From: Deferrisoma camini S3R1
Lineage (GTDB): Bacteria; Desulfobacterota; Deferrisomatia; Deferrisomatales; Deferrisomataceae
DNA: 64,000 nt
Assembly: GCF_000526155.1 (NCBI RefSeq)
Contig: NZ_JAFN01000001.1
Coordinates: 1,699,014 to 1,763,013 of the forward strand
Direction: 5' to 3'
Shown here: one piece after another, positions 10,853 through 47,233 of the stretch
Numbering within the stretch: position 1 is the stretch's first letter
Layout: each line of letters starts with the position of its first letter
Notes under the pieces: model-generated
What the model saw: the letters and a program-made list of their open reading frames with translations, nothing else
Told to the model about the DNA's origin: nothing
The model's database searches: none
Translations under genes and position numbers: made by a program

Positions 10853-13800
10853 CTACCCTTCTTCGTCGTCCTCGGGCGCCGCGTCCGTGGCCCGGCCGTG
10901 AACCAAAACGCCCCTCAGCTCCCAGCGCTTCCAGATGTCGTACACGGCCGGGATGATCACCAGGGTCAGGATCGTCGAGGAGATCAGCCCGCCCACCATG
11001 GGCGCCGCGATCCGCTTCATCACCTGGGAGCCGGTCTCGTGGCCCCACATCACGGGCAGGAGCCCGATCAAGGTGGTGGCCACGGTCATCAGCTTGGGCC
11101 GCACGCGCTCCACCGCGCCCTCGATGATCGAGGCGTGCAGGTCCCCGGTGGTCTTCATCAGGGCGTGGGTTCGGCGTCGGTGGAACGTCTCGTCCAGGTA
11201 CACCAGCATCACCACCCCGGTCTCCGCCGCCAGCCCGGCCAGGGCGATGAACCCCACGGTCACGGCCACCGAGAGGTTGTACCCCAGCAAGAACAGGAGC
11301 CACACCCCGCCCACCAGGGCGAAGGGAAGGCTCGCCATCACGATGGTGGCCTCGGCGATGCTGTGGAAGTGGAGGTACAGCAGCAGGAAGATCACGACCA
11401 GGGTGATCGGCACGATCACGTTCAGGGTCTTGCGGGCCTTCTGCATGTACTCGTACTGACCGGACCACACGATGGAGTACCCAGCCGGGAACTTCACCTC
11501 CCGCTCCACCACCTCCTTGGCCTTCTCCACGTAGGACCCCACGTCCACCCCCTTCAGGTCCACGTAGATCCACGCGGTCTGGCGGGCGTTCTCGCTCTTG
11601 ATGCTCGGCGGGCCCTTCACGATCGACAGCTTCGTCAGCTGCCCCAGGGGCACCTGGGCGCCGGTGGGCGTGGGCACCAGCACCCGCTGGAGCTTGTCCA
11701 GGTCGTCCCGGAGCTCCCGGCTGTAGCGCAGGTTCACCGGGTAGCGCTCGAGCCCCTCGACCGTGTAGGTCACGTTCATGCCGCCGATGGCGGTCATGAT
11801 CACGTCCTGCACGTCCTGCACGGTCAGGCCGTACCGGGCGATCTCCTTGCGATCGATCTCGAAGTCCACGTAGTTGCCGCCGGTGACCCGCTCGGAGTAG
11901 GCCGATAGGGTGCCCGGGATGTCCCGCACCACGGCCTCGATCTTGGCACCCAGGTCCGAGAGCACCTGCAGATCCGGCCCCATCAGCTTGATGCCCACCG
12001 GGGTCTTGATGCCGGTCGACAGCATGTCGATCCGGGTCTTGATGGGCATGGTCCAGGCGTTGGTGAGCCCCGGGAACTGGATGGCCCGGTCCAGGTCCTC
12101 CACCAGCTCGTCGATGGTGATGTAGCGCTCCTCGGGCCAGATCTTGGCCAGGGGCTTCCGGATCCAGTCGGGCCAGTCCGAGAAGAACCGCTCCACCTTC
12201 TTCTTGCGCCACTCGTGGAGCACCTTGCCCCGCTTCACCTCGGGCCAGATCCAGGTCAGGGGCTTCTTGAGCCACCCCGGCCAGTCCGAGAAGAACCGCT
12301 TCACCCGGATCTCCTCGTACTCCACCTGGGGCCGCAACATGATGGTGGTCTCGATCATCGACAGGGGCGCCGGGTCGGTGGCCGTCTCGGCCCGGCCGAT
12401 CTTGCCCAGGGTGTGGTGCACCTCGGGAAAGCTCTGGATGATCTTGTCGGTCTGCTGGAGGACCTCCTTGGCCTTGGTGATGGAGATCCCCGGCAGCGTG
12501 GTGGGCATGTACAGGAGGTCGCCCTCGTTCAGGGGCGGCATGAACTCGCTGCCCAGCCGCGACAGGGGGTACCAGGTGACCACCACCGCCACCAGGGCCA
12601 CCAGCACGGTGGTCTTACGCCACTTGAGCACCGTTCGGATGAACGGCAGGTACAGGCGGATGAAGAACCGGCTGATGGGGTTCTTCGCCTCGGGGATCAT
12701 CCGCTGGGGCACCAGGCACACCGCCGCAAACGCCGACACCCCCAGGGCCGCCACCAGGCTCCAGTCCGGGAGCGCGAGCCCCGCCACTCCCCCGGCCACC
12801 ACCAGGGCCGGGGGCCCCGCCACCGCCCCCACCCAGGTCCAGAACCGGCGTCGGCGCGACGTTTCGGGCGAGAACGTCTCCTCGCGCACGAAGAAGGTCA
12901 TGAGCACCGGGATGATGGTGATGGCCAAGATGGACGAGGCCGCCATGGCGAAGGTCTTGGTGTAGGCCAGGGGTTTGAACAGCCGGCCCGACTGCTCCTG
13001 CAGGGCGAACACCGGCAGGAAGCTCACCGTGATGATCAAGAGGCTGTAGAACAGCGCCGGGCCCACCTCCTTCGAGGCCTCCACGATGATCTCGATGTGG
13101 GGCCGTTTGCCCCGGTCGTGCTCCAGGTGCTTGTGGGCGTTCTCCACCAGCACCACCGAGGCGTCCACCATCACCCCGATGGCGATGGCGATTCCCCCCA
13201 GGCTCATGATGTTGGCGTTGATCCCCAGGGCGTACATCACCAGGAACGACATCAGGATGCCCACCGGCAGGGTGAAGATCGCCACGAACGCGGACCGGAA
13301 GTGCAGGAGGAAGATGACGCAGATGATCGCCACCACCGTCATCTCCTCGATGAGCTTCCCTTTCAGGGTGTCCACCGCCCGCAGGATCAGGGCCGACCGG
13401 TCGTAGCCCGTCTCGATCACCACGCCCTCGGGCAGGCCCTTCTCCAGGTCCTTGAGTTTCTCCTTCACCCGGCGGATCACCTCGAGGGCGTTCTCGCCGA
13501 ACCGCATCACCACCACCCCGCCCACGGCCTCGCCCTCGCCGTTCCACTCGAGGATACCGCGCCTGAGCTCGGGCCCCAGGTGCACGTCGGCCACCTGCCG
13601 CAGGAGCACCGGCGTGCCGAACTTGTCCACCCCGATGGCGATGTTCTCGATGTCCTCGATGCTTCGCAGGTACCCCTTGCCCCGCACCATGAACTCGGTC
13701 TCGCCCATCTCGATGAGCTTGCCGCCCACGTCGTTGTTGGACCGCTGGATGGCGCGGCGCACCTTCTGGATGGGGATGCCGTAGGCCAGCAGCTTGTTGG

Positions 13801-14377
13801 GGTCCACCTCGACCTGGTACTGCTTCACGAACCCGCCCACGCTCGCGACCTCCGACACACCGGGCACGGCCGTCAGCTCGTAGCGCAGGTACCAGTCCTG
13901 GAGGGACCGCAGCTCCGAGAGGTCGTGGGTGCCGGTGGTGTCCTTAAGGACGTACTCGTAGATCCACCCCACGCCGGTGCCGTCGGGGCCCAGGCTCGGG
14001 GTCACCCCCTGGGGCAGCCGGCCGGCCACGAAGTTCAGGTACTCGAGCACCCGGCTCCGGGCCCAGTACAGGTCGGTGCCGTCCTCGAAGATGATGTAGA
14101 CGAAGGAGAACCCGAAGAACGAGTATCCGCGCACCACCTTGGCGTAGGGTACGGCCAGCATGGCCGTGGTCAGCGGATAGGTGACCTGGTCCTCCACCAC
14201 CTGGGGGGCCTGGCCAGGGTACTCGGTGTAGATGATCACCTGCACGTCCGACAGGTCCGGAATCGCGTCCAGGGGGGTGTTGGTCATGGCCAGCACCCCG
14301 CCCAGGATCACGAACACCGTGGCCAGGATCACCATGAACTTGTTGTTGATCGACCATTCGATGATCTTTTCAATCAT
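10853..14377 (-). CDS. cusA: CusA/CzcA-family heavy-metal RND efflux pump
   Basis: Inner-membrane proton-driven pump of the HME-RND family, working with a CusB-type adaptor and a TolC-type channel. At 1174 residues it exceeds the usual length of about 1040. The N terminus (MIEKIIEWSINNKFMVILATVF) and the TM4 motif AIGVMVDASVVLVENAH with its proton-relay Asp and Glu residues identify the family. Extra length comes from a hydrophobic insert after about residue 490 and from a duplicated RFFSDWPxWxxKPL segment in the periplasmic loop. Context with a Met-rich protein and cusB suggests Cu(I)/Ag(I) export. A GGAAGG ribosome site precedes the ATG. Confidence 0.93.
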   Translation of the reverse strand: MIEKIIEWSINNKFMVILATVFVILGGVLAMTNTPLDAIPDLSDVQVIIYTEYPGQAPQVVEDQVTYPLTTAMLAVPYAKVVRGYSFFGFSFVYIIFEDGTDLYWARSRVLEYLNFVAGRLPQGVTPSLGPDGTGVGWIYEYVLKDTTGTHDLSELRSLQDWYLRYELTAVPGVSEVASVGGFVKQYQVEVDPNKLLAYGIPIQKVRRAIQRSNNDVGGKLIEMGETEFMVRGKGYLRSIEDIENIAIGVDKFGTPVLLRQVADVHLGPELRRGILEWNGEGEAVGGVVVMRFGENALEVIRRVKEKLKDLEKGLPEGVVIETGYDRSALILRAVDTLKGKLIEEMTVVAIICVIFLLHFRSAFVAIFTLPVGILMSFLVMYALGINANIMSLGGIAIAIGVMVDASVVLVENAHKHLEHDRGKRPHIEIIVEASKEVGPALFYSLLIITVSFLPVFALQEQSGRLFKPLAYTKTFAMAASSILAITIIPVLMTFFVREETFSPETSRRRRFWTWVGAVAGPPALVVAGGVAGLALPDWSLVAALGVSAFAAVCLVPQRMIPEAKNPISRFFIRLYLPFIRTVLKWRKTTVLVALVAVVVTWYPLSRLGSEFMPPLNEGDLLYMPTTLPGISITKAKEVLQQTDKIIQSFPEVHHTLGKIGRAETATDPAPLSMIETTIMLRPQVEYEEIRVKRFFSDWPGWLKKPLTWIWPEVKRGKVLHEWRKKKVERFFSDWPDWIRKPLAKIWPEERYITIDELVEDLDRAIQFPGLTNAWTMPIKTRIDMLSTGIKTPVGIKLMGPDLQVLSDLGAKIEAVVRDIPGTLSAYSERVTGGNYVDFEIDRKEIARYGLTVQDVQDVIMTAIGGMNVTYTVEGLERYPVNLRYSRELRDDLDKLQRVLVPTPTGAQVPLGQLTKLSIVKGPPSIKSENARQTAWIYVDLKGVDVGSYVEKAKEVVEREVKFPAGYSIVWSGQYEYMQKARKTLNVIVPITLVVIFLLLYLHFHSIAEATIVMASLPFALVGGVWLLFLLGYNLSVAVTVGFIALAGLAAETGVVMLVYLDETFHRRRTHALMKTTGDLHASIIEGAVERVRPKLMTVATTLIGLLPVMWGHETGSQVMKRIAAPMVGGLISSTILTLVIIPAVYDIWKRWELRGVLVHGRATDAAPEDDEEG

Positions 14378-14583: not shown

Positions 14584-16119
14584 TCACATGTCCTCGAAAA
14601 AGTCGTCCTTCTTCTTGCCCGCGTCGCCACCGTCCATGTCGTCGAAGAAGTCGTCGGACGACTTGGCCGGCTTCTCGGCCTTGGGCTTGCCCATCTTGGC
14701 CTCGAGCATCTTCTGCACGGCCTCCTTGAGCTTGGACTCGGAGTCCAGGAGGAACTGGCCCGACGTGACCACGTACTCGCCCTCGGCCACTCCCGAGAGG
14801 ATCTGCACCTTCCCGCCGTCCACCTCGAGCCCCAGGGTCACCTCGCGGGGCGTAAACTTGCCGTCGCCGCGGGTCACGAACACCACGTTGCGCTCGCCGG
14901 ACCGGAGCACCGCCTCGGAGGGGATCAGCAGGCCCTGGCCGGGCAGGGTGGTGCGCAGCTCCACGTCGGCGTACATGTCGGGCTTGAGCTCCAGGTCGGG
15001 GTTGTCGAACTCCAGCCGGATCACCACGTCCCGGGTCTGCCGCTGGAGGTAGGGGTACACGTAGGTCACCTTGCCCACGTACACCCTGCCCGGCTGGTAG
15101 GGCAGGGTCATCCGGGCCTCCTGCCCGACCTTCACCCAGGGCAGCTCGTACTCGTAGATGTGGGCCTCCACCCAGACCTTCGACAGGTCGGCGATCTGGT
15201 ACACGGGCTGGCCGGCCTTCACGAACACCCCCTCCACCGCCTTCTTGTGGGTCACCACCCCGGTGAACGGAGACCGGATCAGGAGGGTCCGGCGGACCTT
15301 GCCGTACTTCTCGATGGCCCGGATCTGGTCGGGGGGGATGTCCATGTACTCCAGCCGGCGGCGGGCCGACGCCAGGAGATCCGATCCGCCCTCGGTCTCG
15401 CTCAGGCTCCGGTAGGCGGTGAGGTACTCCTCCTGGGCCGAGACCAGGTCCGGGGAGTAGATCTCGAACAACGGATCGCCCTTCTTCACCAACTGGCCGG
15501 TGAAGTCCACGTAGAGCTTCTCGATCCAGCCCCCGAACTTGGGGCTCACCGTGGCGGTGCGGGTCTCGTCGTAGGTCACGTGGCCGTAGGTGCGGATGGT
15601 GCGGACCAGGGGGCCCTTCTCCACCGGCGCCGTCCGGATGCCCATGTTCTGCTGGATCACCGGGTCGATCCGGACCTCCACCCCGCCGACCACCTCATCC
15701 TCGTACACCGGCACCAGGTCCATGCCCATCTTGCTCTTGCCGGGGTGGTCGTAGATCTCCGTGGGGTTCATGGGGGCCCGCCAGTACAGGATCTTGCGCT
15801 CCTTCTTTCCCGACGCGGCGGCCTTGGCCTCGGATGCCTCGTCGCGCTTGGGCACCAGTTCCATGCCGCAGATCGGGCAGGTCCCCGGCTCCTCCGAGAT
15901 GATCCAGGGGTGCATGCCGCAGGTGTAGAGGGTTTTCTCGCCCTTCTGTCCCCCGGCCTCACCCACCGGCTGGGGAGCCGTGGCCACGCCGGTTCCTGGG
16001 GCGGAGAGCCATCCGAAGAAGTAGGCGGCTCCCCCGGCCACGCCCAGGGTCACCACCGCCGTGATCAGCACCACCCGCAGGGGGGATCGGGTTTTCGGAT
16101 TCTCAGTGTTGGTCGCCAT
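14584..16119 (-). CDS. cusB: CusB-type periplasmic adaptor with heavy-metal-binding domain
   Basis: Membrane-fusion protein linking the RND pump to an outer-membrane channel. The 511-residue product has an N-terminal membrane anchor (about 15-37) and a heavy-metal-binding motif (YTCGMHP, Cys67, then CPICGMELVP, Cys81 and Cys84). Next come the CusB-type segment MNPTEIYDHPGKSKMGMDLVPVY, hairpin and barrel domains (IEKLYVDFTGQLVKKGDPLF; KVWVEAHIYEYELPWVKVGQ) and an unusual Asp/Phe tail repeated as DDFFDDM and DDFFEDM. The start has an AGGAG site 8 bases upstream. It lies between a TolC-like gene and cusA. The duplicated acidic tail is not typical and may bind metal or a partner. Confidence 0.93.
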   Translation of the reverse strand: MATNTENPKTRSPLRVVLITAVVTLGVAGGAAYFFGWLSAPGTGVATAPQPVGEAGGQKGEKTLYTCGMHPWIISEEPGTCPICGMELVPKRDEASEAKAAASGKKERKILYWRAPMNPTEIYDHPGKSKMGMDLVPVYEDEVVGGVEVRIDPVIQQNMGIRTAPVEKGPLVRTIRTYGHVTYDETRTATVSPKFGGWIEKLYVDFTGQLVKKGDPLFEIYSPDLVSAQEEYLTAYRSLSETEGGSDLLASARRRLEYMDIPPDQIRAIEKYGKVRRTLLIRSPFTGVVTHKKAVEGVFVKAGQPVYQIADLSKVWVEAHIYEYELPWVKVGQEARMTLPYQPGRVYVGKVTYVYPYLQRQTRDVVIRLEFDNPDLELKPDMYADVELRTTLPGQGLLIPSEAVLRSGERNVVFVTRGDGKFTPREVTLGLEVDGGKVQILSGVAEGEYVVTSGQFLLDSESKLKEAVQKMLEAKMGKPKAEKPAKSSDDFFDDMDGGDAGKKKDDFFEDM

Positions 16120-16191: not shown

Positions 16192-17778
16192 CTACCGGCT
16201 CGTGCCCCCTTGGTCCATCCCCAAAGCCTCGGCCAGCTCGGCCCAGGCCACGCCCAGGTCGGCGCGTTTTCGCGCCTCGGTCAGGTTCGCCCCCAGCCAC
16301 CCCATGTACGAGCCGATCACGTCGGCGAACATGACCTCACCGGCCTCGTACCCCCGGGTGGCCACGTCCAGGGCCGCCCGGGACAGCCCCACCACCTTGC
16401 TGGCGTACAGGTCCTCTTCGCGGGCCGCGCGGTCCAGCCGGAACCAGGCGTCGTGGACCCCGAAGCGGGTGGCGGCCTCTTCCTTGCGCAGCCGCTGCCG
16501 CAGGGCCTCGAGCTTTTGGCGGGTCTCCCGCACGTAGGCGTCCCCGCGGCCGTACCACGGCATCTTGGGCAGCCCCGCCCCCACCGAAGCCGTGGTCACC
16601 GTGGCGAACGGCTCCTTCACGCGGGCCGTGCCCACCTGGTTCACCGCCTCGTCCTGGTACAGGGAAAGGTTCAGGGTGTAATCGGGGTAGATCCGCGTCT
16701 CGGCCAACTCGATCATCCGCTCCATCTTGCCCACCTGCGCCCGGAGCATCCGCAGCTCCTGGCGCCGGTCCAGGGCGACCTCGTACAGGGGGCCGAGTTC
16801 CGGCACGTTTCGCACGGGCTCGATCTTGGCCGGCCGTCCCACCGTCACCTCGGGGGGCAGGTCCAGGATCTCGCGGATCTTCGACTCCACGGTGTGGCGC
16901 TGCTCGGCCAGGGTCTGCACGTCCTCGGTCACGGTCTCGCGCCGGATCCGAACCTGGATCACGTCCTGGAAGTTGGTCTTCCCGGCCTCGTACCGGGCCT
17001 TGGCCACGGACTCGAGCCGTTCGAGCAGTTCGAGCATCTCAGTGGTGATCCGCTCGGCCTCGGTCACGAACTCCAGGTTCCAATAGGCCTTGCGGATGTT
17101 GGTGATCGCGGTGCGCCGGGCGATCTCGAGCCCCTCGGCGGCCGCCCTCACCTCCTGGGTGACGATCTCGCCCTTCAGGGCCAGCAGGCCGGGGAACGGG
17201 AACCGCATCTGCACCGGCTCCCGGCCCTTCATGGGCCCCACCCCGTTCATCAGCCCCTCGGTGAAGGCCGTGTACTGGCGTAGGATCTCGTCGAGGTTCC
17301 ACGCCTGGGTGTAGCGCTCCAAGATCCCACGCAAGCGGTCCTGGGCGGCACGGATTCCCGGGTTGCGCAGCCAGGTGAGCACCTCGAGGTCCTGCAGGGT
17401 GACCCCGTCGGCGGCGAGTGCCCGGGCGGCGACCCCGGCGTCGTCGGCAGCGTCCCGGAGCCGGGCGAGAACTTCGTCCGGCGGGGAGTAGAACCCTTCC
17501 GACGGCGCTGCCTGCTCCAGGGCCTTGGTCCATCGCTGCCGGGCCTGCGCAAGCACCTCCTTCTGGCGCTCGAACTCTTCGCTCCCGGCGGGTTTCGCCT
17601 TTGCCGGAACGGCCGGAGCGGCAGCGGTCTGGGTTCGGTACAGCCCCTCGGGCTGGTAGGACTCCCACTGGTCGCTCAGCTCCCCGTACCCGGCCCAGGC
17701 CGGCGCCCCGGCGAACACGGCGACGCCCAACGCCCAGAGCGCCGGCATCCGGCGGATCCAATTCCGTAACCGTCTCAT
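16192..17778 (-). CDS. TolC-family outer-membrane efflux protein (second of two)
   Basis: A 528-residue exported outer-membrane factor of the TolC/CusC family. It has a signal sequence (MPALWALGVAVFAGAPAWA within residues 10-30), long amphipathic helices (ARYEAGKTNFQDVIQVRIRRETV) and a C-terminal repeat half (TRGYEAGEVMFADVIGSYMGWLGANL). The ATG at 17778 overlaps the stop of the upstream TolC-like gene (ATGA), so the two are translationally coupled. It has an extra N-terminal region (about 60-150) compared with its neighbour and is only distantly related to it. Probably the second channel of the efflux operon. Confidence 0.88.
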   Translation of the reverse strand: MRRLRNWIRRMPALWALGVAVFAGAPAWAGYGELSDQWESYQPEGLYRTQTAAAPAVPAKAKPAGSEEFERQKEVLAQARQRWTKALEQAAPSEGFYSPPDEVLARLRDAADDAGVAARALAADGVTLQDLEVLTWLRNPGIRAAQDRLRGILERYTQAWNLDEILRQYTAFTEGLMNGVGPMKGREPVQMRFPFPGLLALKGEIVTQEVRAAAEGLEIARRTAITNIRKAYWNLEFVTEAERITTEMLELLERLESVAKARYEAGKTNFQDVIQVRIRRETVTEDVQTLAEQRHTVESKIREILDLPPEVTVGRPAKIEPVRNVPELGPLYEVALDRRQELRMLRAQVGKMERMIELAETRIYPDYTLNLSLYQDEAVNQVGTARVKEPFATVTTASVGAGLPKMPWYGRGDAYVRETRQKLEALRQRLRKEEAATRFGVHDAWFRLDRAAREEDLYASKVVGLSRAALDVATRGYEAGEVMFADVIGSYMGWLGANLTEARKRADLGVAWAELAEALGMDQGGTSR

Positions 17779-19106
17779 TGCTTCCCCTCCTCGGCGCTTG
17801 CTTCCCGCCGGGTCAGGCTCGTGGCCGTCAGCCGTTCCAGCCGGGCCAGGAACTTCCCGTAGTCGGCCTCGGCCCGGGCCAGGGAGAGCTGGAAGTTGTA
17901 GTACACCGACTGAGTCTCCACGAAGTCGCTGAAGCTCCCCTCCCCCTCCTGGAACCACGTCTCGGCCACATCCAGGGACTGGGCAGCCTGGGGCAGGAGC
18001 TCGTCCCGGTAGAGCGTAACCAACCGCTCCGCATTCTTGAGACGGAAGTACACGCTTCGGATGGCCGCGTCGGTGTCGTTGATCCGCGCGACCTTCAGGG
18101 CCCGGGCCCGCTCGATCTCCGCGCGGGCGGCCGCGGTCCGGCCCGCGTTCTTCCCGAGCCACAGGGGAATCGTCATGCCGAACTGAACGCCCAGGGCGTC
18201 ACGGCCGGCATCGTCGGGCTCGTTGGCCACGTCCGGCTCCCCGACGCCCGCGTAGAACAGCCCCACCTTGAAGTCCGGCCGGTTCTCGTACCGGGCTAGG
18301 TCCAGCTTGGCCCTCGCCTTCGCCACCCGGGCCTCGGCGATCCGGATCTCCTCCTGCCGCTTGGCCGCCAGCTCGTGGATCTCATCGAGGCTGTAGGCCA
18401 GGGGCTGGAACGGGATCTCCGGCAGAGGCCCCAGCTCGGCGCCCGGAGCGCGGTTGAGCAGCGCGTTCAACCGGGCCCGCTCCGTGGCCTCGAGCTCCTC
18501 GAGCAGGAGGGCGTCGTACTCCAGCTGGGCCCGCTGGGACTGGGCCTTGGCCACGTCCACGAACGTGGCCCGGTCGCCGGCGTGGGCGGTCTCGGCCACC
18601 TTGCGCATGTGGTCCAGCAGCTCCCGGTTCGCCGCCACCACCTGCTTGGCGCGCCGGATGTAGAGCAGCTCGTGGACCGACTCGCGAAGCGCCACGATCA
18701 CGTCCCTCACCGTCTTGTCGAGCTCCAGACGGGCGATGCGCGCATCCGCCTCCACCACCTCCCCGGCCTTCGAGAGCTTGCCGGGAAACGGAATCATCTG
18801 ACTCAGCACCGCGTTCCAGTCCTGCGGCCCCAACCTCGTCTCGATCGGCTCGGGGAAGTAGGTCACCATGACCTGGGGATCGGGGTACGCCGTGGAGACC
18901 CGGTAACGCTCCACCACGGACTTCCATTTCTGACGGGCCGCCGCAATCTTGGGGTTGGTCTGGTACGCGTAGGTCACCAGATCCGCCACCGAGGGGCCGC
19001 TCCGGAGCCGGGCCTCCAAAGCGGCCGGGGCCTCGGCAGCCCGGACCGGCGCCACCGCAACGGCGACCGCCAGCGCGCCCATCATCCATCCAACGGTTCG
19101 TTTCAT
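17775..19106 (-). CDS. TolC-family outer-membrane efflux protein (first gene of the efflux operon)
   Basis: A 443-residue exported outer-membrane factor, family TolC/CusC/CzcC. The signal sequence is MKRTVGWMMGALAVAVAVAPVRA. Typical features are DPQVMVTYFPEPIETRLGPQ, the helix AKQVVAANRELLDHMRKVAETAHAGDRATFVDVAKAQ and EGSFSDFVETQSVYYNFQLSLARAE (the last two are spaced repeats of the two-fold helical barrel). The start at 19106 has a GGAGAGAATGGG site. It is the first gene behind a sigma-54 core at 19217-19232, about 100 bases downstream of the expected transcription start. Confidence 0.9.
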   Translation of the reverse strand: MKRTVGWMMGALAVAVAVAPVRAAEAPAALEARLRSGPSVADLVTYAYQTNPKIAAARQKWKSVVERYRVSTAYPDPQVMVTYFPEPIETRLGPQDWNAVLSQMIPFPGKLSKAGEVVEADARIARLELDKTVRDVIVALRESVHELLYIRRAKQVVAANRELLDHMRKVAETAHAGDRATFVDVAKAQSQRAQLEYDALLLEELEATERARLNALLNRAPGAELGPLPEIPFQPLAYSLDEIHELAAKRQEEIRIAEARVAKARAKLDLARYENRPDFKVGLFYAGVGEPDVANEPDDAGRDALGVQFGMTIPLWLGKNAGRTAAARAEIERARALKVARINDTDAAIRSVYFRLKNAERLVTLYRDELLPQAAQSLDVAETWFQEGEGSFSDFVETQSVYYNFQLSLARAEADYGKFLARLERLTATSLTRREASAEEGKQ

Positions 19107-19216
19107 CCCATTCTCTCCGGTCTTCGAAGAAACCCAGCGGACGGCAGCCGTTATACCCGGGGCCCAGAAATTCGCAAACCGAACTCGCGTCGCCGTCCCG
19201 GGTCGGCGGCCCAAGG

Positions 19217-19232
19217 AGCAACCCATGTGCCA
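19217..19232 (-). promoter_or_regulatory. Sigma-54 promoter core for the efflux operon
   Basis: Read on the minus strand the sequence is TGGCACATGGGTTGCT. GG and GC are exactly 10 bases apart, with near-consensus TGGCAC (-24) and TTGCT (-12). Transcription should start near 19206, leaving a leader of about 100 bases before the first TolC-like gene. A tandem pair of 14-base motifs lies about 70-105 bases upstream, the usual position for an enhancer-binding protein. Confidence 0.8.
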
Positions 19233-19299
19233 GCCACCATTCCACCGTTATTCTCACCTGTTAGCACGATGGGTTTCCTCTCGAGAACGGCGGCATGAA

Positions 19300-19335
19300 G
19301 ACTATTCTCCAACCGCCTGTGGACTATTGAGCACC
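19300..19335. promoter_or_regulatory. Tandem 14-base enhancer-like motifs (efflux operon)
   Basis: Forward-strand GACTATTCTCCAAC (19300-19313) and GACTATTGAGCACC (19322-19335) start 22 bases apart, two helical turns. A pair with the same spacing and near-identical sequence is found at 33080-33115, again upstream of a sigma-54 core. The second copy overlaps the stop codon of the HMA-domain gene. Likely binding sites for a sigma-54 activator, with the response regulator at 23605-24975 as the nearest candidate; this is inference. Confidence 0.65.
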
Positions 19336-22927: not shown

Positions 22928-23314
22928 TCAACACAGGAAGGAGACGTTTCGAAGGTACAGGTCGGCGGGGGGAGAGGCGCCCGAAGGGTGGATCCGCTCG
23001 GGCCCGAGGGGCCCGGCAGGGGGAACGGGCGCCAGCGGGAGGGGGGCGATCCCAACCACATGGACCGAGGGGAAGAACGACGCGGCCCCCACGGCCGCAT
23101 CGGGAACGCGGCCCCCGAGGTCCTCGTGGAAGTCGCAGGGAATCGGGGCATGGCCGCAGCAGCAAGCCGGGGACGGTTGCCGCTCGGGGCCGTGCCCCGA
23201 CGGCATGGAGGCGCAGCACGATGCACCGCACGCGGCAGCCCCTGGGGACGCGAACCCCAGGAGCACCATCGCCACCACCAGCCGTGTTGCGACCCAACGC
23301 TGTACCGATGTCAT
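22928..23314 (-). CDS. Secreted Cys-rich small protein, unknown function
   Basis: A 128-residue protein with a signal sequence (VVAMVLLGFASPGAAA). A Cys/His-rich stretch follows (CGASCCASMPSG, then SPACCCGHAPIPCDFHEDLGG) and then a Pro/Gly-rich region ending VSFLC. I do not recognise a family. Eight Cys lie within about 35 residues, as in short periplasmic metal-binding proteins. It is the first gene before the DUF2318-permease-ATPase set (186 bases to the DUF2318 start). The minus-strand reading frame is favoured over overlapping frames because only it has a signal sequence and a good start. Confidence 0.6.
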   Translation of the reverse strand: MTSVQRWVATRLVVAMVLLGFASPGAAACGASCCASMPSGHGPERQPSPACCCGHAPIPCDFHEDLGGRVPDAAVGAASFFPSVHVVGIAPLPLAPVPPAGPLGPERIHPSGASPPADLYLRNVSFLC

Positions 23315-23604: not shown

Positions 23605-24975
23605 TCACCCCGCCTTTCGCCGCGGGACCCCGAACTTCTCCATGCGGTACAGCAGGATGTGCCGTGGAATCCGGAGCAGGCGGGCGGCCCGGCTCTGGTT
23701 CCACCCGGTCCGGCGCAGGGCCTCCTCGATCACGGCCCGCTCCACCTCCTCGAGGGAGATGCCCTCCGGGGGGAGGGTGAACGAGAACCCCCCCGCCTGC
23801 CCCGGGTCCTGGTCTGGAGCCCGGATCTTCTCCGGCAGGTCCTCCAGCTCGATCGTGTCCGAGTCCCGGAGCACCAGCAGCCGCTCAATGGTGTTCTCGA
23901 GCTCCCGCACGTTCCCCTTCCAGGGGTAGCGCTGCAGGGCCTCCAACGCCTCGGGCGTGACCCGGATCGTCTTGCCCGGGGCGAGCTTCTTCAGGAAGTG
24001 GGCGACCAGCAACGGCACGTCCTCGGGCCGCTCCCGAAGCGACGGCATGTGGATCGGCACCACCGCCAGCCGGTAGTACAGGTCCTCCCGGAACCGGCCC
24101 TCCTCGATCTCCGCCTCCAGGTCCCGGTTCGTGGCGGCCACCACCCGGGCGTCCACCCGGATCACCTCGTTCGACCCCACCGGCGTAATCTCCCGTTCCT
24201 GGAGGGCGCGCAGGATCTTTGGCTGGAGGTCCAAGGGCATCTCGCCGATCTCGTCGAGAAAGATCGTGCCGCCAGCGGCCTCCTCGAACCGGCCCTTCTT
24301 GTCGCGGATGGCGCCGGTGAACGCCCCCTTGCGGTGGCCGAACAGCTCGCTCTCCAGCAGTTCCCTGGGAATGGCCGCGCAGTTCACCGCCACGAACGGC
24401 CGGTCGGCCCGCCGGCTCTGGCGGTGAATGGCCCGGGCCACCAGCTCCTTGCCCGTCCCGCTCTCCCCGGTGATCAACACCGAGGCGTCCGAGTCGGCCA
24501 CCTTCTCGATGAGCCGGTACACGGCCTGCATCGCGGGCGAGTCCCCCACGATCCGATCCACCCCCTCGGAGCGTCGCACCTCCTGCCGGAGGCGGACGTT
24601 CTCCGCCTCGAGGTTCCGGATCCGAAGCGCCTTTCGGACCGCCAGTTTGAGCTCGTCGCGGTTGAACGGTTTGGTGATGTACTCGGCCGCGCCCGCCTTC
24701 ATGGCCTCCACGGCCATCTCGATGGTGCCGAAGGCCGTGATCACGATGACCTGGGTCTCGGGAGACTCGGCCTTGATCCGCCGCAGCAGGTCCATGCCGT
24801 CCATGCCGGGCATCTTGATGTCGGTGACCACCAGGTCGAACGAGGCCTTCTCCAGGCGCTCCAGCGCCTCCTCACCGCTGGCCGCCGTGGCCACGGCATA
24901 CCCTTCCTGGGCCAGGTTGTACTCCAGAATCCGTCTGAGGCTCGCATCGTCGTCCACCACCAGAACCCTAGCCAT
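23605..24975 (-). CDS. NtrC-family sigma-54-dependent response regulator
   Basis: A 456-residue enhancer-binding protein. It has a receiver domain (acidic pocket VVDDD, phospho-acceptor Asp52 in VVTDIKMPG, Lys in ITKPF), a central AAA+ domain with Walker A GESGTGKE, the sigma-54 contact loop GAFTGA and Walker B TIFLDEIGEM. A C-terminal Fis-type helix-turn-helix follows (LRRTGWNQSRAARLLRIPRHILLYRMEKFGV). It is similar to ZraR/AtoC/HydG regulators, which answer envelope or metal stress. The start overlaps the kinase stop by 8 bases. It is the best local candidate to act at the tandem motifs found near sigma-54 cores in this window. Confidence 0.95.
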   Translation of the reverse strand: MARVLVVDDDASLRRILEYNLAQEGYAVATAASGEEALERLEKASFDLVVTDIKMPGMDGMDLLRRIKAESPETQVIVITAFGTIEMAVEAMKAGAAEYITKPFNRDELKLAVRKALRIRNLEAENVRLRQEVRRSEGVDRIVGDSPAMQAVYRLIEKVADSDASVLITGESGTGKELVARAIHRQSRRADRPFVAVNCAAIPRELLESELFGHRKGAFTGAIRDKKGRFEEAAGGTIFLDEIGEMPLDLQPKILRALQEREITPVGSNEVIRVDARVVAATNRDLEAEIEEGRFREDLYYRLAVVPIHMPSLRERPEDVPLLVAHFLKKLAPGKTIRVTPEALEALQRYPWKGNVRELENTIERLLVLRDSDTIELEDLPEKIRAPDQDPGQAGGFSFTLPPEGISLEEVERAVIEEALRRTGWNQSRAARLLRIPRHILLYRMEKFGVPRRKAG

Positions 24976-26128
24976 CCGCTTCCTCCAGCGCCGGAAGGGT
25001 CAACACGAATCGGGCCCCCCCCTCGGGGCGGTTCTCCGCCACCAGGGTCCCTCCGTGGGCCTCGGCGATCTTGCGGCTGATCGCCAGCCCCAGCCCCGTG
25101 CCCTCCTCCTTGGTCGTGAAGAACGGCTCGAACACCCGCTGCTCCTCGCCCCGGGGCAGCCCCGGGCCCTCGTCCTCCACGCACAGGTGGGCCACCCGTC
25201 CCGCCACCTGCCGGAACTCGGGCCCGAGGACCCGCCCGTCGCAGCTGCCGACCCGCACGATGACTCTCCGGCCCGGGGGAGTGGCCTGGACCGCGTTCAA
25301 CACCAGGTTGAGAAGCACCTGCTTGAGCTGCGCCGGCCGCCCCCCCACCCGGACCGGCTCATCGGCCTCGAGCGACACCGTCACCCCCGCCTTGCGGGCC
25401 GGGGTGGACAGAAACCCCACCACCTGCCGTGCGACCTGGGCCAGATCCACCGCCTCCCCCTCTTCGGTGCTGCCGGGCCGGGCGTACCCCAGAAACTCCT
25501 CCACCACCTGGTTGAGGCGATCGGTTTCCTTCAGAAGGATCTCCAGGAACTCCGCCTTGGGGTGCCCGCTGGGGAACTCGTCGCGCAGGATCTCGGCCGT
25601 GCCCTTGATCGCACCCAGGGGGTTTCGGATCTCGTGGGTCACCGCGGCCGCGAGCTGGCCGATGGCCGAGAGCCGATCGGCCCGCCGGAGCTGCTCCTCC
25701 ACCTGGAGCAGGGTGTCGGCCTGACGCCGCAGCTCCTCGTAGGACCTCTCCAGACGCTCGTTGGCCATCTGGAGCCGGCGCCGGTAGGCCCGGTCGCGGT
25801 CGGCGAAGAAACCCACCAGCCCCGAGAACACGAAGTACAGCCCCACCTCCATGACCCGGTTCCACAGCTCCCGGCCCATGTCGTTCCAGTAGATGATGAT
25901 GTGGGGCACGTAGATCGCCGCCACCACCCCGGATACGGCGAGCCCGCCGCGCAGACCGAACCACACGGCGGCCAGCCCCACGGGGATGTAATAGAGGCGG
26001 CGGTACACGTCGTGGAGCAGCGGGCGGGCCGTGGTGGTGCCGTAGTGAAGGAGCGACACGCCGAACACGAGCACGGCTACCGCGCCCACCTTGATCCAGA
26101 AGTCCTTCCTCGGGTCGTTCACCAGCAT
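24968..26128 (-). CDS. Membrane sensor histidine kinase partnered with the NtrC-type regulator
   Basis: A 386-residue kinase. The N-terminal membrane domain has four or five hydrophobic segments (about 12-110) and no sizeable periplasmic loop. A coiled coil (about 115-150) follows, then HisKA with the phospho-acceptor His165 in VTHEIRNPLGAIKG, and an HATPase domain (N-box LNLVLNAVQAT, G1 EDEGPGLP, F-box EPFFTTKEEGTGLGLAI). The sensory part resembles membrane-embedded detectors rather than the periplasmic ZraS type. It overlaps the regulator gene by 8 bases, so both are made together. It is divergent from two secreted-peptide genes. Confidence 0.93.
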   Translation of the reverse strand: MLVNDPRKDFWIKVGAVAVLVFGVSLLHYGTTTARPLLHDVYRRLYYIPVGLAAVWFGLRGGLAVSGVVAAIYVPHIIIYWNDMGRELWNRVMEVGLYFVFSGLVGFFADRDRAYRRRLQMANERLERSYEELRRQADTLLQVEEQLRRADRLSAIGQLAAAVTHEIRNPLGAIKGTAEILRDEFPSGHPKAEFLEILLKETDRLNQVVEEFLGYARPGSTEEGEAVDLAQVARQVVGFLSTPARKAGVTVSLEADEPVRVGGRPAQLKQVLLNLVLNAVQATPPGRRVIVRVGSCDGRVLGPEFRQVAGRVAHLCVEDEGPGLPRGEEQRVFEPFFTTKEEGTGLGLAISRKIAEAHGGTLVAENRPEGGARFVLTLPALEEADG

Positions 26129-26258
26129 GGCGTGATCCCTCCGGCTCGGTCGGCCGGAGTCGGAAGCAAGGGTCGTACCGCCGCCTGAATCGGGCGGATT
26201 TCCGCGGTTCTCTCAGAATCCCCCGGCCCGGAGGCTACCACCGGTCTCTGTGGGTGTC

Positions 26259-26291
26259 GAGTTTTCTGCAGTCCGCACAATATTCACCTAA
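26259..26291. promoter_or_regulatory. Possible enhancer site upstream of the peptide genes
   Basis: GAGTTTTCTGCAGT (26259-26272) matches the 14-base enhancer motif at 11 positions. A weaker copy, CAATATTCACCTAA (26278-26291), starts 19 bases on, not the 22 seen elsewhere. They lie about 90-120 bases upstream of the sigma-54 core at 26378. The 313-base gap 26129-26441 between the kinase and the peptide genes contains nothing else recognisable apart from a small inverted repeat, CTTTGT with ACAAAG, near 26299-26321. Confidence 0.4.
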
Positions 26292-26377
26292 ACCAAACCT
26301 TTGTCAAAAAACCCCACAAAGCGGGCAGCGACAACACTATCTAATCATATCAGTGAGTTACGGATTTTTTCCTGCGC

Positions 26378-26393
26378 TGGCACGCCCTATGCT
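26378..26393 (+). promoter_or_regulatory. Sigma-54 promoter core for the secreted-peptide genes
   Basis: TGGCACGCCCTATGCT has the full -24 TGGCACG, exact GG-N10-GC spacing and a -12 ATGCT (consensus TTGCT/A). The predicted start near 26404 leaves a leader of about 38 bases to the first peptide ATG. A sigma-54 activator gene is 1.4 kb away. Confidence 0.75.
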
Positions 26394-26441
26394 TTGCACT
26401 CAGGTCGAACACAACCCCATTCCCACCAAGGAGGTGGAACC

Positions 26442-26588
26442 ATGAAACGCATCGCAGCCCTCACCGTCCTGTTGGCCCTGCTCGGCATCACCGGCGTGAG
26501 CCTGGCAGCCCCTGCCGCGTCGGCGTGCGGGTGCAGCTCGGCCCAGCAGACCACCACCAACCTGGAAGCCACAGACCTGGTGCGCTAG
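26442..26588 (+). CDS. Secreted micropeptide 1 (48 aa, CxC and EATDLVR C terminus)
   Basis: A 48-codon gene with an ideal ribosome site (AAGGAGGTGGAACC). The product has a positively charged start and hydrophobic core (MKRIAALTVLLALLGITG), then small residues around probable signal-peptidase sites (SLAAPAASA). The mature peptide is only about 20-26 residues, ACGCSSAQQTTTNLEATDLVR. A paralogue of equal length starts 22 bases downstream. I know no named family. A CxC pair could hold metal or form a disulfide; a peptide signal is also possible. No modification or export enzyme of RiPP type is adjacent. Confidence 0.75.
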   Translation: MKRIAALTVLLALLGITGVSLAAPAASACGCSSAQQTTTNLEATDLVR

Positions 26589-26609
26589 CGCACCGAAGGA
26601 GGTGATCCC

Positions 26610-26756
26610 ATGAAGCGCGCAGCATTTCTCGCCCTGCTCCTCTCGACCCTGGCGGTGGGAACCGTGAGCCTGGCGGCTCCGGCTACCACAGCCTCCGGAT
26701 GCTCCTGCCCCACGATGGAGCGCACCACCATGGAGGCGATCGACCTGGTCCGGTAA
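26610..26756 (+). CDS. Secreted micropeptide 2 (48 aa, paralogue of micropeptide 1)
   Basis: A 48-codon gene with a perfect GAAGGAGGTGATCCC ribosome site. The product begins MKRAAFLALLLSTLAVGTVSLA, with APATTA near the probable cleavage site, and its mature part is SGCSCPTMERTTMEAIDLVR. It aligns with micropeptide 1 over its whole length without gaps: the starts match (MKR), SLAAPA is identical, both have a CxC pair offset by a residue, and both end EAxDLVR. The tandem pair is likely co-transcribed from the sigma-54 core at 26378 and closed by the hairpin at 26794. Function unknown. Confidence 0.75.
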   Translation: MKRAAFLALLLSTLAVGTVSLAAPATTASGCSCPTMERTTMEAIDLVR

Positions 26757-26824: not shown

Positions 26825-27431
26825 CGCCGTTTCGGGGAAAGGCCCGACGACCGCGTCCCGTTCGACTCGTTGCGCTGGCTTCCACCGACCGCTGTCGAGA
26901 TAGCCGGGGCGCTTGACGAACCGAGGGGATGCGGTAATGAGACACCTGAGTCCCTGTACGCGGAGTACGCGAACGGTTCGGGAGCGCCCCCCGGCACCTG
27001 GGCTTGGGGCGTTCGACAACGGCTCAGAGCGACGGGTCGTGAAGGACTTCCGGCACGTTCGCCGAGGCGCGAGGGAAGGGAACGAGGGCCCGGCAACCAC
27101 GCCGACCTCACCCGAGGGGCCGTGTCCCAGAGGCGTGAACCGACGGCGAGTGCTCCTCGTTCGGATCGGCACGCACAAAAAAGGGGGGAAGGGTGGACCA
27201 GACCCTTCCCCCCTCTACAGGAGGAATGGGAATCGGGTTGGGGCGATTCCCATGAAGGAAACGTTATGCATCAGGCGTGCCAAGGTCGCGGACCAACGGA
27301 CGACACCCGCAAGGCCGGGGATCGAGGCACGATCTTCCTCCCTCTGTCGCACCACCCGCGCGGGAGACAGCTGACGAATATTCCACACACCTGTCGAATA
27401 ATATACAAACTCAAACAGTGTTATTTTTTTG
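26825..27431. other. Gene-free region with strong hairpins upstream of the porin
   Basis: Between the peptide terminator and the porin promoter no convincing gene is seen. It contains a 12-bp perfect stem at 27183-27213 (GGGGGGAAGGGT with ACCCTTCCCCCC). This is preceded by six A's, so it reads as an intrinsic terminator on the minus strand although no minus-strand gene lies to the right. A GGGAATCG/CGATTCCC hairpin lies near 27227-27250, followed by a GAAGGAAACG tract. ACCTGTC (27389-27395) and GACAGGT (27434-27440) frame an AT-rich stretch. A small RNA is possible but no known family was recognised. Confidence 0.4.
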
Positions 27432-27592: not shown

Positions 27593-29029
27593 ATGAAAAG
27601 AACCGTTTCCCAGATCGCGCTCGCCACGATCGCCGCGGTGGGGTTGGCCCTGCCGGCACAGGCGGCCATCCAGTTCTTCGGAACCGCCAAGATCAAGCCC
27701 ACCTTCTACAACAACTTCGACTTCGACGACTCCAAGGGCGACGCCCCGGCCCTGAACGAGGGCGGGTGGGCCTCGGGCGAGCACATCCGCGCCGAGCTAC
27801 GGCTCGGCTGGAAAGCCACGGGCGACAACTGGTCGGTGAAGATGATCGCCGAGTCCGACGTGATCATGAACAAGGACAACGGCGACCGGTCGTTCTACGC
27901 TGGAAAGAAGGACGACCCCAACAACACGGGAGCAACCAAGAACAACCAGCCCAACGCGGGCGGCGAGTTCGGGATCGAGCGGGCCGAGTTCCTCTACACC
28001 TTCGCCCCCGAGCTGCAACTGGAGACCGGCTGGGACATCCGGTTCCTCGACCTGAAGACCGGCGGCCTCCTGTACGGCGACGACCACCCGTTCATCGGGT
28101 TCCGCGGCAAGGTGGGCGACATGCTCTCGTACGAACTCCTGTACATGCCCATCCAGAACTCGGACCTGATCGGAACCCGGGACGACTGGCAGACCGGTGA
28201 CTGGCGGGTGTACACGGCCAAGGTGAACGCCACGTTCGACACGGGAATGGGTAAGTTCACGGTGAGCCCCTTGTTCGCCTACAGCGACAACGAGGCTAAG
28301 AACGTGAACGTGGCCTACTACGGCGTGGAGGGGCTCGGCCAGATCGGGCCGGTGAAGCCCAGCTTCGAGGTGGTGGCCGCCAACGGCGAGTTCGAGGACG
28401 GCGGGCCGGACGTGCGCTCCTGGGCCGCGTTCGCCGGGCTCGAGGTGCCGGTGAGCAAGGCGTTTAGCCCCTACGTGGCGTTTCGGTACACCCGGGGTGA
28501 CGACGACTCCAGCGACGACGACGTCGAAGGCTGGCTCGGCATCACCGACATCGGCCGGTTCACCCCGCTCATGGGCATGGACGGCAACATCCTGGGCGAG
28601 CACCTGGCCTCGGGCGCGAGCCCCTACGGCGCCTCCCTGTACGCCTATGCTCCGGAGCGGGCCGTGGGCGGCAACGGCTACGGTGGCATCGGCAACGGCG
28701 GCTCCGGCAACAACCCGGGCCAGCGGCTGATCGCGGTGGGCGCCAAGGGCGACCTGGGGCGGTTCGTGGCCAACCTCTCCTACAAAGCCCAGGCGTTCTT
28801 CATCTGGTACGACGAGACCGGCAACCTGACCAACGCGAAGGACCCGGGCGAGGACGTGGACGACTACGCCGGAACCACCTTCGACCTCCAGCTCAAGTAC
28901 AAGTTCAACAAGAACTTCTCCATCGACAACATCTTCTCGGCCTTCGTGCCGGGCCAGGGCATCGAGGACCAGGTGGACGCCAACGACACCGCCTGGCTCA
29001 ACATGCTGACGTTGGCGTGGGCCTACTAA
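27593..29029 (+). CDS. Outer-membrane beta-barrel porin (alginate-export-like)
   Basis: A 478-residue exported barrel. The signal is MKRTVSQIALATIAAVGLALPAQA. Alternating-strand segments follow (IQFFGTAKIKPTFYNNFDFDD, HIRAELRLGWKATGDNWSVKMIAE, RAEFLYTFAPELQLETGWDIRFLD), and the protein ends in an aromatic strand, MLTLAWAY, as in barrel proteins. A Gly/Asn-rich loop lies near residues 355-375 and an acidic loop (GDDDSSDDDVEG) near 300. The start has a GAAGGAGGAATCC ribosome site; upstream in-frame codons are not exported-protein-like. Single-gene unit with its own terminator. The substrate cannot be inferred. Confidence 0.85.
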   Translation: MKRTVSQIALATIAAVGLALPAQAAIQFFGTAKIKPTFYNNFDFDDSKGDAPALNEGGWASGEHIRAELRLGWKATGDNWSVKMIAESDVIMNKDNGDRSFYAGKKDDPNNTGATKNNQPNAGGEFGIERAEFLYTFAPELQLETGWDIRFLDLKTGGLLYGDDHPFIGFRGKVGDMLSYELLYMPIQNSDLIGTRDDWQTGDWRVYTAKVNATFDTGMGKFTVSPLFAYSDNEAKNVNVAYYGVEGLGQIGPVKPSFEVVAANGEFEDGGPDVRSWAAFAGLEVPVSKAFSPYVAFRYTRGDDDSSDDDVEGWLGITDIGRFTPLMGMDGNILGEHLASGASPYGASLYAYAPERAVGGNGYGGIGNGGSGNNPGQRLIAVGAKGDLGRFVANLSYKAQAFFIWYDETGNLTNAKDPGEDVDDYAGTTFDLQLKYKFNKNFSIDNIFSAFVPGQGIEDQVDANDTAWLNMLTLAWAY

Positions 29030-32367: not shown

Positions 32368-32487
32368 TCAGGGGACCACGCAGTGCCCTGGGGCCATGTG
32401 GCCCCAATGGTGAAAGGGGAAGCACCCTGCCAGGCCCAGCAGGGCGATGCCGGCGAGAACCAGCCACATCCATCTCCTCGGCAACAT
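32368..32487 (-). CDS. Small lipoprotein (39 aa)
   Basis: A 39-codon gene with an AGGAGG ribosome site 9 bases before the ATG. The product is MLPRRWMWLVLAGIALLGLAGC, a textbook lipoprotein signal with lipobox LAGC (Cys22), then FPFHHWGHMAPGHCVVP. The mature peptide would be 18 residues: a lipidated Cys, four His and a second Cys, plausible metal ligands. It lies ahead of the Asp-rich lipoprotein on the same strand. A CGATCG-GAA-CGATCG repeat at 32521-32535, upstream of both, could be an operator. Confidence 0.65.
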   Translation of the reverse strand: MLPRRWMWLVLAGIALLGLAGCFPFHHWGHMAPGHCVVP

Positions 32488-32975: not shown

Positions 32976-32991
32976 TTGCAGGGGGCGTGCC
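32976..32991 (-). promoter_or_regulatory. Sigma-54 promoter core for the receiver-like gene
   Basis: On the minus strand GGCACGCCCCCTGCAA: GGCACG at -24, exactly 10 bases to GC, then CTGCA at -12. The predicted start near 32966 is 35 bases from the gene start. Two 14-base enhancer-like motifs lie about 90-125 bases upstream. Confidence 0.7.
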
Positions 32992-33079
32992 CCCCGTTGC
33001 CGGGGTGCCCCCAAAGAAACTGGCGGGAGGAAACGGAGACGGGTGGAAGGGACGGGTTGCCCGGCCTCCGCATGCTGCT

Positions 33080-33115
33080 GACTATTCTTCACTCAGGCGT
33101 AGACTATTCTCCACT
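33080..33115. promoter_or_regulatory. Tandem 14-base enhancer-like motifs (receiver-like gene)
   Basis: GACTATTCTTCACT (33080-33093) and GACTATTCTCCACT (33102-33115) differ by one base and start 22 bases apart. The same spacing and sequence type occurs at 19300-19335. The second copy contains the stop codon of the PepSY-like gene, as the equivalent site does for the HMA-domain gene. Confidence 0.7.
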
Positions 33116-38338: not shown

Positions 38339-40963
<2,625 letters not shown>

Positions 40964-45907: not shown

Positions 45908-47233
45908 ATGAGCGACAAGGCCCCGGAAGGGCACGACCCCGCTTCCGAACTCCCCAGAAGAACCTTTCTGAAGACCGGCCTCGCAGTGGCCGGTGCGGCC
46001 GCCGCAGGGCTCGCGACCAAGGCCGAGGCAGCGATTCCTAAGCCCCCTCCCGGCGGGGAGACGCGGTTCGTCGCCCCGCCCCTCCTCTCGCCCTCGGCTG
46101 CCCCCGATCCGGGGCACCAGACCCCCCTACCGGCCCAGGGGCGCACCATCGAGGCCCCGCTGCACGGCATCCCCGCCGTGGTGGAGCCGCCCGGAGCACC
46201 CCGGGACGACCAGGTCGCCTACAAGACCTTCGACCTGGACCTGCAGATCGCGCGCCACACCCTGCTTCCCGGGGTCGAGGCCCACCTGCTGGCCTTCAAC
46301 GGCAGGGTCCCCGGCCCCACCATCCGGGTGATGGAGGGGGACTGGGTCAAGGTACGGTTCAAAAACCGCACGGAGCTCATGCACACCATCCACTGGCACG
46401 GCATGGACGTGCCCTACACCATGGACGGCGTGCCCTGGGTCACCCAGGACCCGGTCCGGCCCGGGCAGACGTTCATCTACCGGTTCCAGGCCCGGCCCGC
46501 GGGCACGCGGTTCTACCACTGCCACTTCGGCACCCTGCTCCACATGCAGTCGGGCATGCACGGCGCGTTCATCATCGAGAAGCCCAACGACCCGATCCGC
46601 CAACGGTTTCCCTACACCCGCGACTACGTTTTGATCCTGACAAGCTGGGACCTGAACTTCATCCGCGAGGAGCTCAACGCCATGCTCCGGCGGATGAAGG
46701 AGCGGATGCTCCTCATGGAGCTGGGGAAGCTCGACCCCCAAACCATGGGCGTGTTCCGTACCTACGAGGACCTCCAGAGGGCCCTGGAGAGCGGCTACAT
46801 GCCCCCCTACACCACCCAGCGGCTGGCCGGCGAGGGCCGGGCCACCCTGAACTTCAATTTCTTCGCCATCAACGGCAAGTGCTATCCCTCCACCGAGAAT
46901 CTGCTGATCCGCGAGGGCGAGTGGATCCGGATCCGGCTCATCAACGCCGGCCAGCTGGAACACTATATGCATCTCCACGGCCATCAGTTCTTCATCGTGG
47001 CCGAGGACGGAAACGACCTGCCCGAGCCGATCGAGCAGAACACGGTGCGGGTGTCGCCGGGCAAGACCGCGGACATCGTGGTCTACGGCAACAATCCGGG
47101 GTACTGGACCTTTCACGACCACGACACCCGCAGGGTCACCAACAACGGGATCTACCCGGGCGGCATCCTGACCGTGCTCGCCTACGAGGGCATCGACGGC
47201 CCCTACGCCCCCAAGGTGGCCCTGGATGAGTGA
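45908..47233 (+). CDS. Tat-exported two-domain multicopper oxidase
   Basis: A 441-residue periplasmic copper oxidase. The Tat signal is RRTFLK at residues 17-22, followed by a hydrophobic Ala-rich core. Domain 1 has HTIHWHG (His159, His162, His164) and FYHCHFGTLLHMQSGM, containing Cys205, His206, His212 and Met217: a complete type-1 copper site plus type-3 ligands. Domain 2 has EHYMHLHGHQF and FHDHDTRRVTNNG, where the usual Cys and last His of HCHxxxHxxxxM are replaced. The type-1 site is therefore only in domain 1, the layout of type-C two-domain oxidases and NirK. Substrate may be Cu(I), Mn(II) or an organic donor. Confidence 0.9.
   Translation: MSDKAPEGHDPASELPRRTFLKTGLAVAGAAAAGLATKAEAAIPKPPPGGETRFVAPPLLSPSAAPDPGHQTPLPAQGRTIEAPLHGIPAVVEPPGAPRDDQVAYKTFDLDLQIARHTLLPGVEAHLLAFNGRVPGPTIRVMEGDWVKVRFKNRTELMHTIHWHGMDVPYTMDGVPWVTQDPVRPGQTFIYRFQARPAGTRFYHCHFGTLLHMQSGMHGAFIIEKPNDPIRQRFPYTRDYVLILTSWDLNFIREELNAMLRRMKERMLLMELGKLDPQTMGVFRTYEDLQRALESGYMPPYTTQRLAGEGRATLNFNFFAINGKCYPSTENLLIREGEWIRIRLINAGQLEHYMHLHGHQFFIVAEDGNDLPEPIEQNTVRVSPGKTADIVVYGNNPGYWTFHDHDTRRVTNNGIYPGGILTVLAYEGIDGPYAPKVALDE

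Follow-up and report, generated by a model that had tools for sequence, protein, structure and literature searches.

Twin secreted peptides and the adjoining two-component system

Two tandem genes for 48-residue products lie divergent from an operon of a kinase and an NtrC-type regulator in the window, the 64,000-nucleotide stretch of Deferrisoma camini S3R1 DNA that was analysed as a whole and to which all positions refer. The features at the locus are the following.

23605..24975 (-), NtrC-type sigma-54-dependent response regulator (receiver, sigma-54 activator and Fis domains)
24968..26128 (-), membrane sensor histidine kinase (HisKA/HATPase), a short multi-TM sensor that shows no obvious large periplasmic domain
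26165..26180 (-), kinase-gene sigma-54 promoter, CGGTACGACCCTTGCT, score 21.0, at the same position in G001, G002, G004 and G007
26255..26289, degenerate enhancer pair (26255-26270 and 26274-26289) common to the kinase and peptide promoters
26378..26393 (+), sigma-54 promoter of the peptide genes, TGGCACGCCCTATGCT, 48 nt upstream of the ATG and conserved in three species
26442..26588 (+), peptide 1, 48 aa, MKRIAALTVLLALLGITGVSLAAPAASACGCSSAQQTTTNLEATDLVR; its orthologues in two sister species show 96-100% identity
26610..26756 (+), peptide 2, 48 aa, MKRAAFLALLLSTLAVGTVSLAAPATTASGCSCPTMERTTMEAIDLVR

Both peptide ORFs have strong ribosome sites (AAGGAGGTGG and AAGGAGGTGA), and each encodes a signal sequence, a CxC pair and an EAxDLVR end, in agreement with an earlier note on this DNA, whose coordinates and ribosome sites were also correct. 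The two products share 54% identity in an alignment without gaps, with their CxC pairs out of register by two residues (C29/C31 versus C31/C33). Orthologous peptide pairs are present in two other species of the genus, where the locus is kept together with its promoter. The second peptide of one sister species carries an extra codon (a whole-codon indel), so the description of the pair as gap-free homologues is valid for this genome only.

Comparison of the three species revealed purifying selection on the peptide genes. Most substitutions affect the third codon position, dN/dS by NG86 is about 0-0.17, and three-way invariant positions make up 92% and 82% of the two genes versus 13% of the downstream spacer. 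On these grounds the twin ORFs are very probably protein-coding genes, and conservation merely as a DNA-level repeat, which the earlier note had named as a refuting case, is excluded. Together with the conserved signal sequences, the coding pattern supports the prediction of real small secreted proteins. The predicted mature peptides comprise about 20 residues (CGCSSAQQTTTNLEATDLVR and SGCSCPTMERTTMEAIDLVR). The sequences ASAC and ASGC are poor lipoboxes, and in the related peptides of G004 and G007 the Cys lies, by eye, off the likely cleavage site.

Consistent with the proposal that the peptides belong to no known family, neither matched Pfam (up to E=1, DUF2282 included), and NCBIfam gave no comparable match for either and no homology to ZraP. 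Sequence and profile searches of 395 genomes of the phylum recovered only signal-sequence matches beyond the genus, where similarity was not significant alone (best E 0.016, in one genome). A scan of 84,980 species genomes with back-translated patterns found one locus, in a sister species. Small ORFs ending in EAxDLVR, which the earlier note had suggested looking for in relatives, occur within the genus, but beyond it the end is not kept, and the peptides of relatives share only a C-terminal [D/E]-hydrophobic-x-[P/R].

The domains of the two minus-strand proteins agree with the proposed divergent operon of a kinase and an NtrC-type regulator. Their best NCBIfam scores were to AtoC/NtrC/ZraR models, none above the equivalog cut-off, and both fail the Zra equivalog models (ZraS, 184 bits versus a cut-off of 479; ZraR, 435 versus 760). 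The divergent layout, with sigma-54 promoters on both sides, points to a functional link between the peptides and the two-component system. Directly after the regulator gene, a 128-aa Cys-rich secreted-looking protein without a family match is encoded at 22928-23314 (-).

Copper-efflux island, sigma-54 promoters and enhancer motif

Past the regulator, on the same strand, follow genes for a Cys-rich small protein, an FtrD-like protein, FtsX- and ABC-type transporter parts, an HMA protein and Cus proteins; on the other side of the peptides lie a copper-type ATPase and a multicopper oxidase. Judged by its gene content, the window is a copper/silver-type resistance (efflux) island. The features of the island, and the promoter and enhancer sites within it, are as follows.

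10853..14377 (-), CusA/CzcA heavy-metal RND pump (TIGR00914, above cut-off)
14584..16119 (-), CusB-type adaptor with a heavy-metal-binding domain
17775..19226 (-), efflux protein of the outer membrane, CusC/TolC type, probably starting at 19106
19217-19232 (-), sigma-54 site of cusC, from the weighted scan
19296-19333, enhancer pair of cusC
27174..27262 (-), putative small RNA dependent on sigma-54, with a hairpin, a CCUCCU linker and a strong terminator (position of the 5' end approximate)
27267..27282 (-), conserved sigma-54 promoter before the small RNA, TGGCACGCCTGATGCA
27372..27407, enhancer pair belonging to this promoter and upstream of it
27593..29029 (+), beta-barrel protein of the outer membrane, found with the small RNA in two genera
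32368..32487 (-), 39-aa His/Cys lipopeptide, MLPRRWMWLVLAGIALLGLAGCFPFHHWGHMAPGHCVVP, conserved in sister species
32977-32992 (-), sigma-54 site of the lipopeptide operon, score 20.5
33076-33113, enhancer pair of the lipopeptide operon
38339..40963 (+), YHS/HMBD copper-type P-type ATPase
45908..47233 (+), Tat-signal multicopper oxidase

A P-II-like protein (PF00543; 10447-10785, minus strand) adjoins CusA. The predicted sigma-54 lipopeptide operon comprises genes for a 106-aa protein, the 39-aa lipopeptide and, as its third gene (30907-32286, minus strand), a lipoprotein with many DxDGDG (calcium-type) repeats. A 41-aa His/Cys lipopeptide, MKTFWTVLAVVGLLAGATALAGCYPHHPYGPGHRHGPSCPY, is encoded behind another sigma-54 site (G000:C1:2682292, minus strand), just downstream of a different NtrC-type regulator and near a heavy-metal ATPase; it is also present in G001 and G003.

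A weighted sigma-54 scan of the window gave five sites scoring at least 21.5 versus 0.2 expected, a value that is approximate because the null was a local base shuffle. They include the sites before the peptides (26378, plus strand), cusC (19232, minus strand) and the non-coding element (27282, minus strand). Across 12 genomes of the order, a stringent sigma-54 pattern had about 53 matches versus 1 for the reversed control. The sigma-54 element reported before the peptides is at the position given earlier and belongs to a class of sites that exceeds chance both in the window and in the genomes of the order. Another strong sigma-54 site, without a clear gene, lies at 35939-36008 (-). A weak enhancer-like site is located 54 bp upstream of it, and it is followed by a 111-aa ORF with a ribosome site, antisense to another ORF.

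The intergenic regions of the kinase genes in relatives have in common the motif TGNNGAMTATTCNNCA. A weight matrix was built from relatives only, to which this genus contributed no sequence; its sites are mostly paired, 19-22 bp apart, and lie 40-230 bp upstream of the sigma-54 promoters. With up to two mismatches, the motif has 18 matches in the window versus 2.0 expected, a number reached in 0 of 100 shuffles; the 18 matches correspond to nine places, since the near-palindromic sites are counted on both strands. In the 4.24-Mb genome, exact copies of the motif are limited to three places, each inside the window, and with one mismatch it has a few isolated matches elsewhere (control, 1).

Units preceded by the motif here are cusC, the kinase and peptide genes, the small RNA and the lipopeptide operon, and in relatives cusC (G007), cusB (G004), copper-type ATPases (G003 and G005), the kinase and small secreted peptides. 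Of these enhancers, the pair in the kinase-peptide intergenic region is the weakest, with a score of 13.6 and two mismatches, its second site being weaker still. The TGNNGAMTATTCNNCA sites are presumably bound by the NtrC-type regulator, and regulation of the predicted regulon is well supported by comparative genomics.

The small RNA element lies downstream of the peptides and convergent with them, and 76 nt of it are 96% invariant in three species. Its minus strand is predicted to fold into a hairpin, a UUCCUCCUGU linker and a strong terminator (-47 kcal/mol, z -5.6). Rfam returned no match at the gathering threshold, and permissive matches were at chance level. A -24/-12 element at the proper distance, a conserved structure and a terminator are consistent with a sigma-54-dependent small RNA, and the element is predicted to belong to the same regulon as the peptides. 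With a covariance model it was also detected in G003, a member of another genus, next to the orthologous outer-membrane gene and without the peptides, which rules out a small RNA that acts as a partner of the peptides only. In duplex predictions, the ribosome site of the copper ATPase ranked best (-17.8 kcal/mol), followed by regions such as that of the outer-membrane protein (-14.2); no target is claimed, because the anti-Shine-Dalgarno linker pairs with many ribosome sites.

Relatives of the order and known systems

Orthologues of the kinase (60-64% identity) and the regulator (73-79%) are present in four genomes of the order. In G007, an enhancer and a sigma-54 promoter, divergent from the kinase, are followed 157 nt downstream by a gene for a 53-aa secreted peptide with CSC. 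In G005, paired enhancers and a sigma-54 promoter precede a gene, again divergent from the kinase, for a secreted peptide of 52 aa that contains a His/Cys cluster. Relatives with such divergent genes for small secreted proteins have kinase identities of 60-63% and regulator identities of 75-79%. The gene divergent from the G004 kinase encodes an 81-aa secreted protein with His but no Cys, and a 49-aa secreted CGC peptide is encoded behind an enhancer and a sigma-54 promoter on a separate contig (C133). A different gene, and no peptide, is divergent from the kinase orthologue in G006, and G003, where the small RNA is kept, yielded no clear kinase orthologue and no peptides.

The short peptides of G000, G004, G005 and G007 all end in [D/E]-hydrophobic-x-[P/R], a pattern spotted post hoc, and their tails otherwise diverge. 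Since sequence similarity is not significant alone, peptide homology outside the genus rests on position, promoter and design, and similarity searches alone do not reach the peptides of relatives. Kinase relatives from outside the order with less than about 48% identity mostly lack the layout, and AEC-type transporters or unrelated genes are divergent from the kinase. In a pair with 38-40% kinase identity (G051 and G012), a YHS-type secreted Cys/His protein is encoded behind a sigma-54 site.

ZraP is a larger chaperone-like zinc protein, and CusR is an OmpR-type sigma-70 regulator; the mature part of bufferins is much longer than that of the present peptides. The closest parallel is the ZraS-ZraR/ZraP system of enterobacteria, in which an NtrC-type regulator likewise accompanies an autoregulated kinase operon, and a secreted accessory protein for metal has a sigma-54 promoter that faces away from this operon. 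The zraSR and zraP genes have divergent sigma-54 promoters under the control of ZraR, and a reference title describes ZraP as a repressor of ZraSR (PMC4987338). An NtrC-type regulator and a membrane kinase in one operon are found here as well, and divergent sigma-54 promoters with shared enhancers are recognisable at the level of sequence. Unlike in that system, two thiol peptides of about 20 residues take the place of ZraP, and the predicted regulon adds Cus efflux, a small RNA and a lipopeptide operon. The locus is not assigned to ZraSR/ZraP, because the kinase, the regulator and the peptides fail the Zra models and because the output is far smaller and is encoded together with copper efflux.

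CusRS-CusCFBA and CopRS resemble the island in two-component control of CusCBA-type efflux, with a copper-type ATPase and a multicopper oxidase nearby, but the regulator here is an NtrC-type sigma-54 activator. Bufferins, oxazolins and methanobactins are likewise small Cys peptides tied to copper, whereas here no modifying enzyme was found in the window and there is no family match. SilE, CopK and CusF-type proteins are similar as probable periplasmic metal buffers; the present peptides have no sequence match to them, are shorter and appear to be sigma-54 controlled. Qrr and GlmY/GlmZ are also small RNAs behind sigma-54 promoters under NtrC-type regulators, but the putative RNA here has no Rfam match at the gathering threshold, carries a CCUCCU anti-Shine-Dalgarno linker and is linked to a metal regulon.

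Proposed function and competing explanations

The locus is probably a ZraSR/ZraP-like sigma-54 circuit for heavy-metal stress, most likely copper or silver, with ultra-short secreted peptides that buffer metal as its accessory output. That the peptides are such buffers is suggested by their apparent co-control with pumps and the small RNA by one metal-type sensor-regulator pair. In the proposed mechanism, the membrane kinase would sense excess metal, or damage caused by it, and phosphorylate the regulator, which would bind the paired TGNNGAMTATTCNNCA sites and activate the sigma-54 promoters of its own operon, the twin peptides, cusC, the small RNA and the His/Cys lipopeptide operon. Cleavage of the leader by signal peptidase would release about 20 residues into the periplasm or medium, with the CxC pair at the new N-terminus or close to it. 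There the thiols would bind Cu(I) or Ag(I), buffering the metal, and the peptides may pass it to the Cus pump or report to the kinase. Thiol-based periplasmic buffering is the most likely function, with feedback on the kinase possible in addition. Copper is probably the metal, judging by the neighbouring genes; silver, zinc or envelope stress would look alike.

Of the earlier suggestion of a metal-binding or signalling peptide, the metal half fits the copper-efflux island and the shared enhancer motif, while the signalling half is not supported. The peptides do not form a stand-alone new system, as had been supposed, but appear to be one output of a ZraSR-like regulon with Cus efflux, the small RNA and the lipopeptide operon.

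Alternatively, the peptides could be feedback modulators that, once metal-bound, attach to the short periplasmic loops of the kinase and damp the response, with the acidic-hydrophobic C-terminus as the docking end. The divergent layout with a sigma-54 kinase promoter, the description of ZraP as a ZraSR repressor and the C-terminal pattern retained in G000, G004, G005 and G007 despite divergent tails are in line with this account, which we nevertheless regard as unlikely, since the pattern was noticed after the fact and the G004:C133 peptide is not adjacent to the kinase. We give little credence to precursors of a modified copper-binding peptide, a bufferin-, oxazolin- or methanobactin-like RiPP: the products are secreted Cys peptides in a copper context, and bufferins and oxazolins carry Sec signal peptides too (PMC12452194), but DUF2282 was not matched and no MNIO or other modifying enzyme was found among the window proteins scanned. 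Still more improbable are secreted signalling or quorum peptides; short secreted products do adjoin a two-component system, but the kinase sensor is of a short membrane type, the predicted regulon is one of metal efflux, and neither a peptide receptor nor a dedicated exporter was found. Translated leaders or spurious ORFs with a true function at the RNA level, an idea prompted by the very short ORFs and the structured RNA in the same region, are the least credible in view of the position-3 pattern, dN/dS, whole-codon indel, two good ribosome sites and conserved signal sequences.

Beyond the circuit with metal-buffering peptides that we favour, we tentatively suggest that secreted thiol peptides of about 20 residues may constitute a distinct class that both buffers metal and provides the sensors of a sigma-54 copper regulon, and that is co-expressed with a regulatory RNA whose CCUCCU linker would sequester the ribosome sites of two genes, one for the outer-membrane protein and one for the copper ATPase. 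The part of the literature that was searched contains no description of a ZraP-like circuit with such peptides, and the passages found by metal keywords in papers on Desulfovibrio sigma-54 and response-regulator targets mention no equivalent system.

If correct, these proposals would provide a complete sigma-54 metal-stress regulon and its enhancer motif for a poorly studied bacterial order, and would imply that secreted peptides below the standard annotation size can be regulated outputs of metal resistance. They would also yield a transferable rule, in which an enhancer pair and a sigma-54 site near a kinase lead to fast-evolving micropeptides that are invisible to similarity searches, and the small RNA would tie metal sensing to outer-membrane remodelling.
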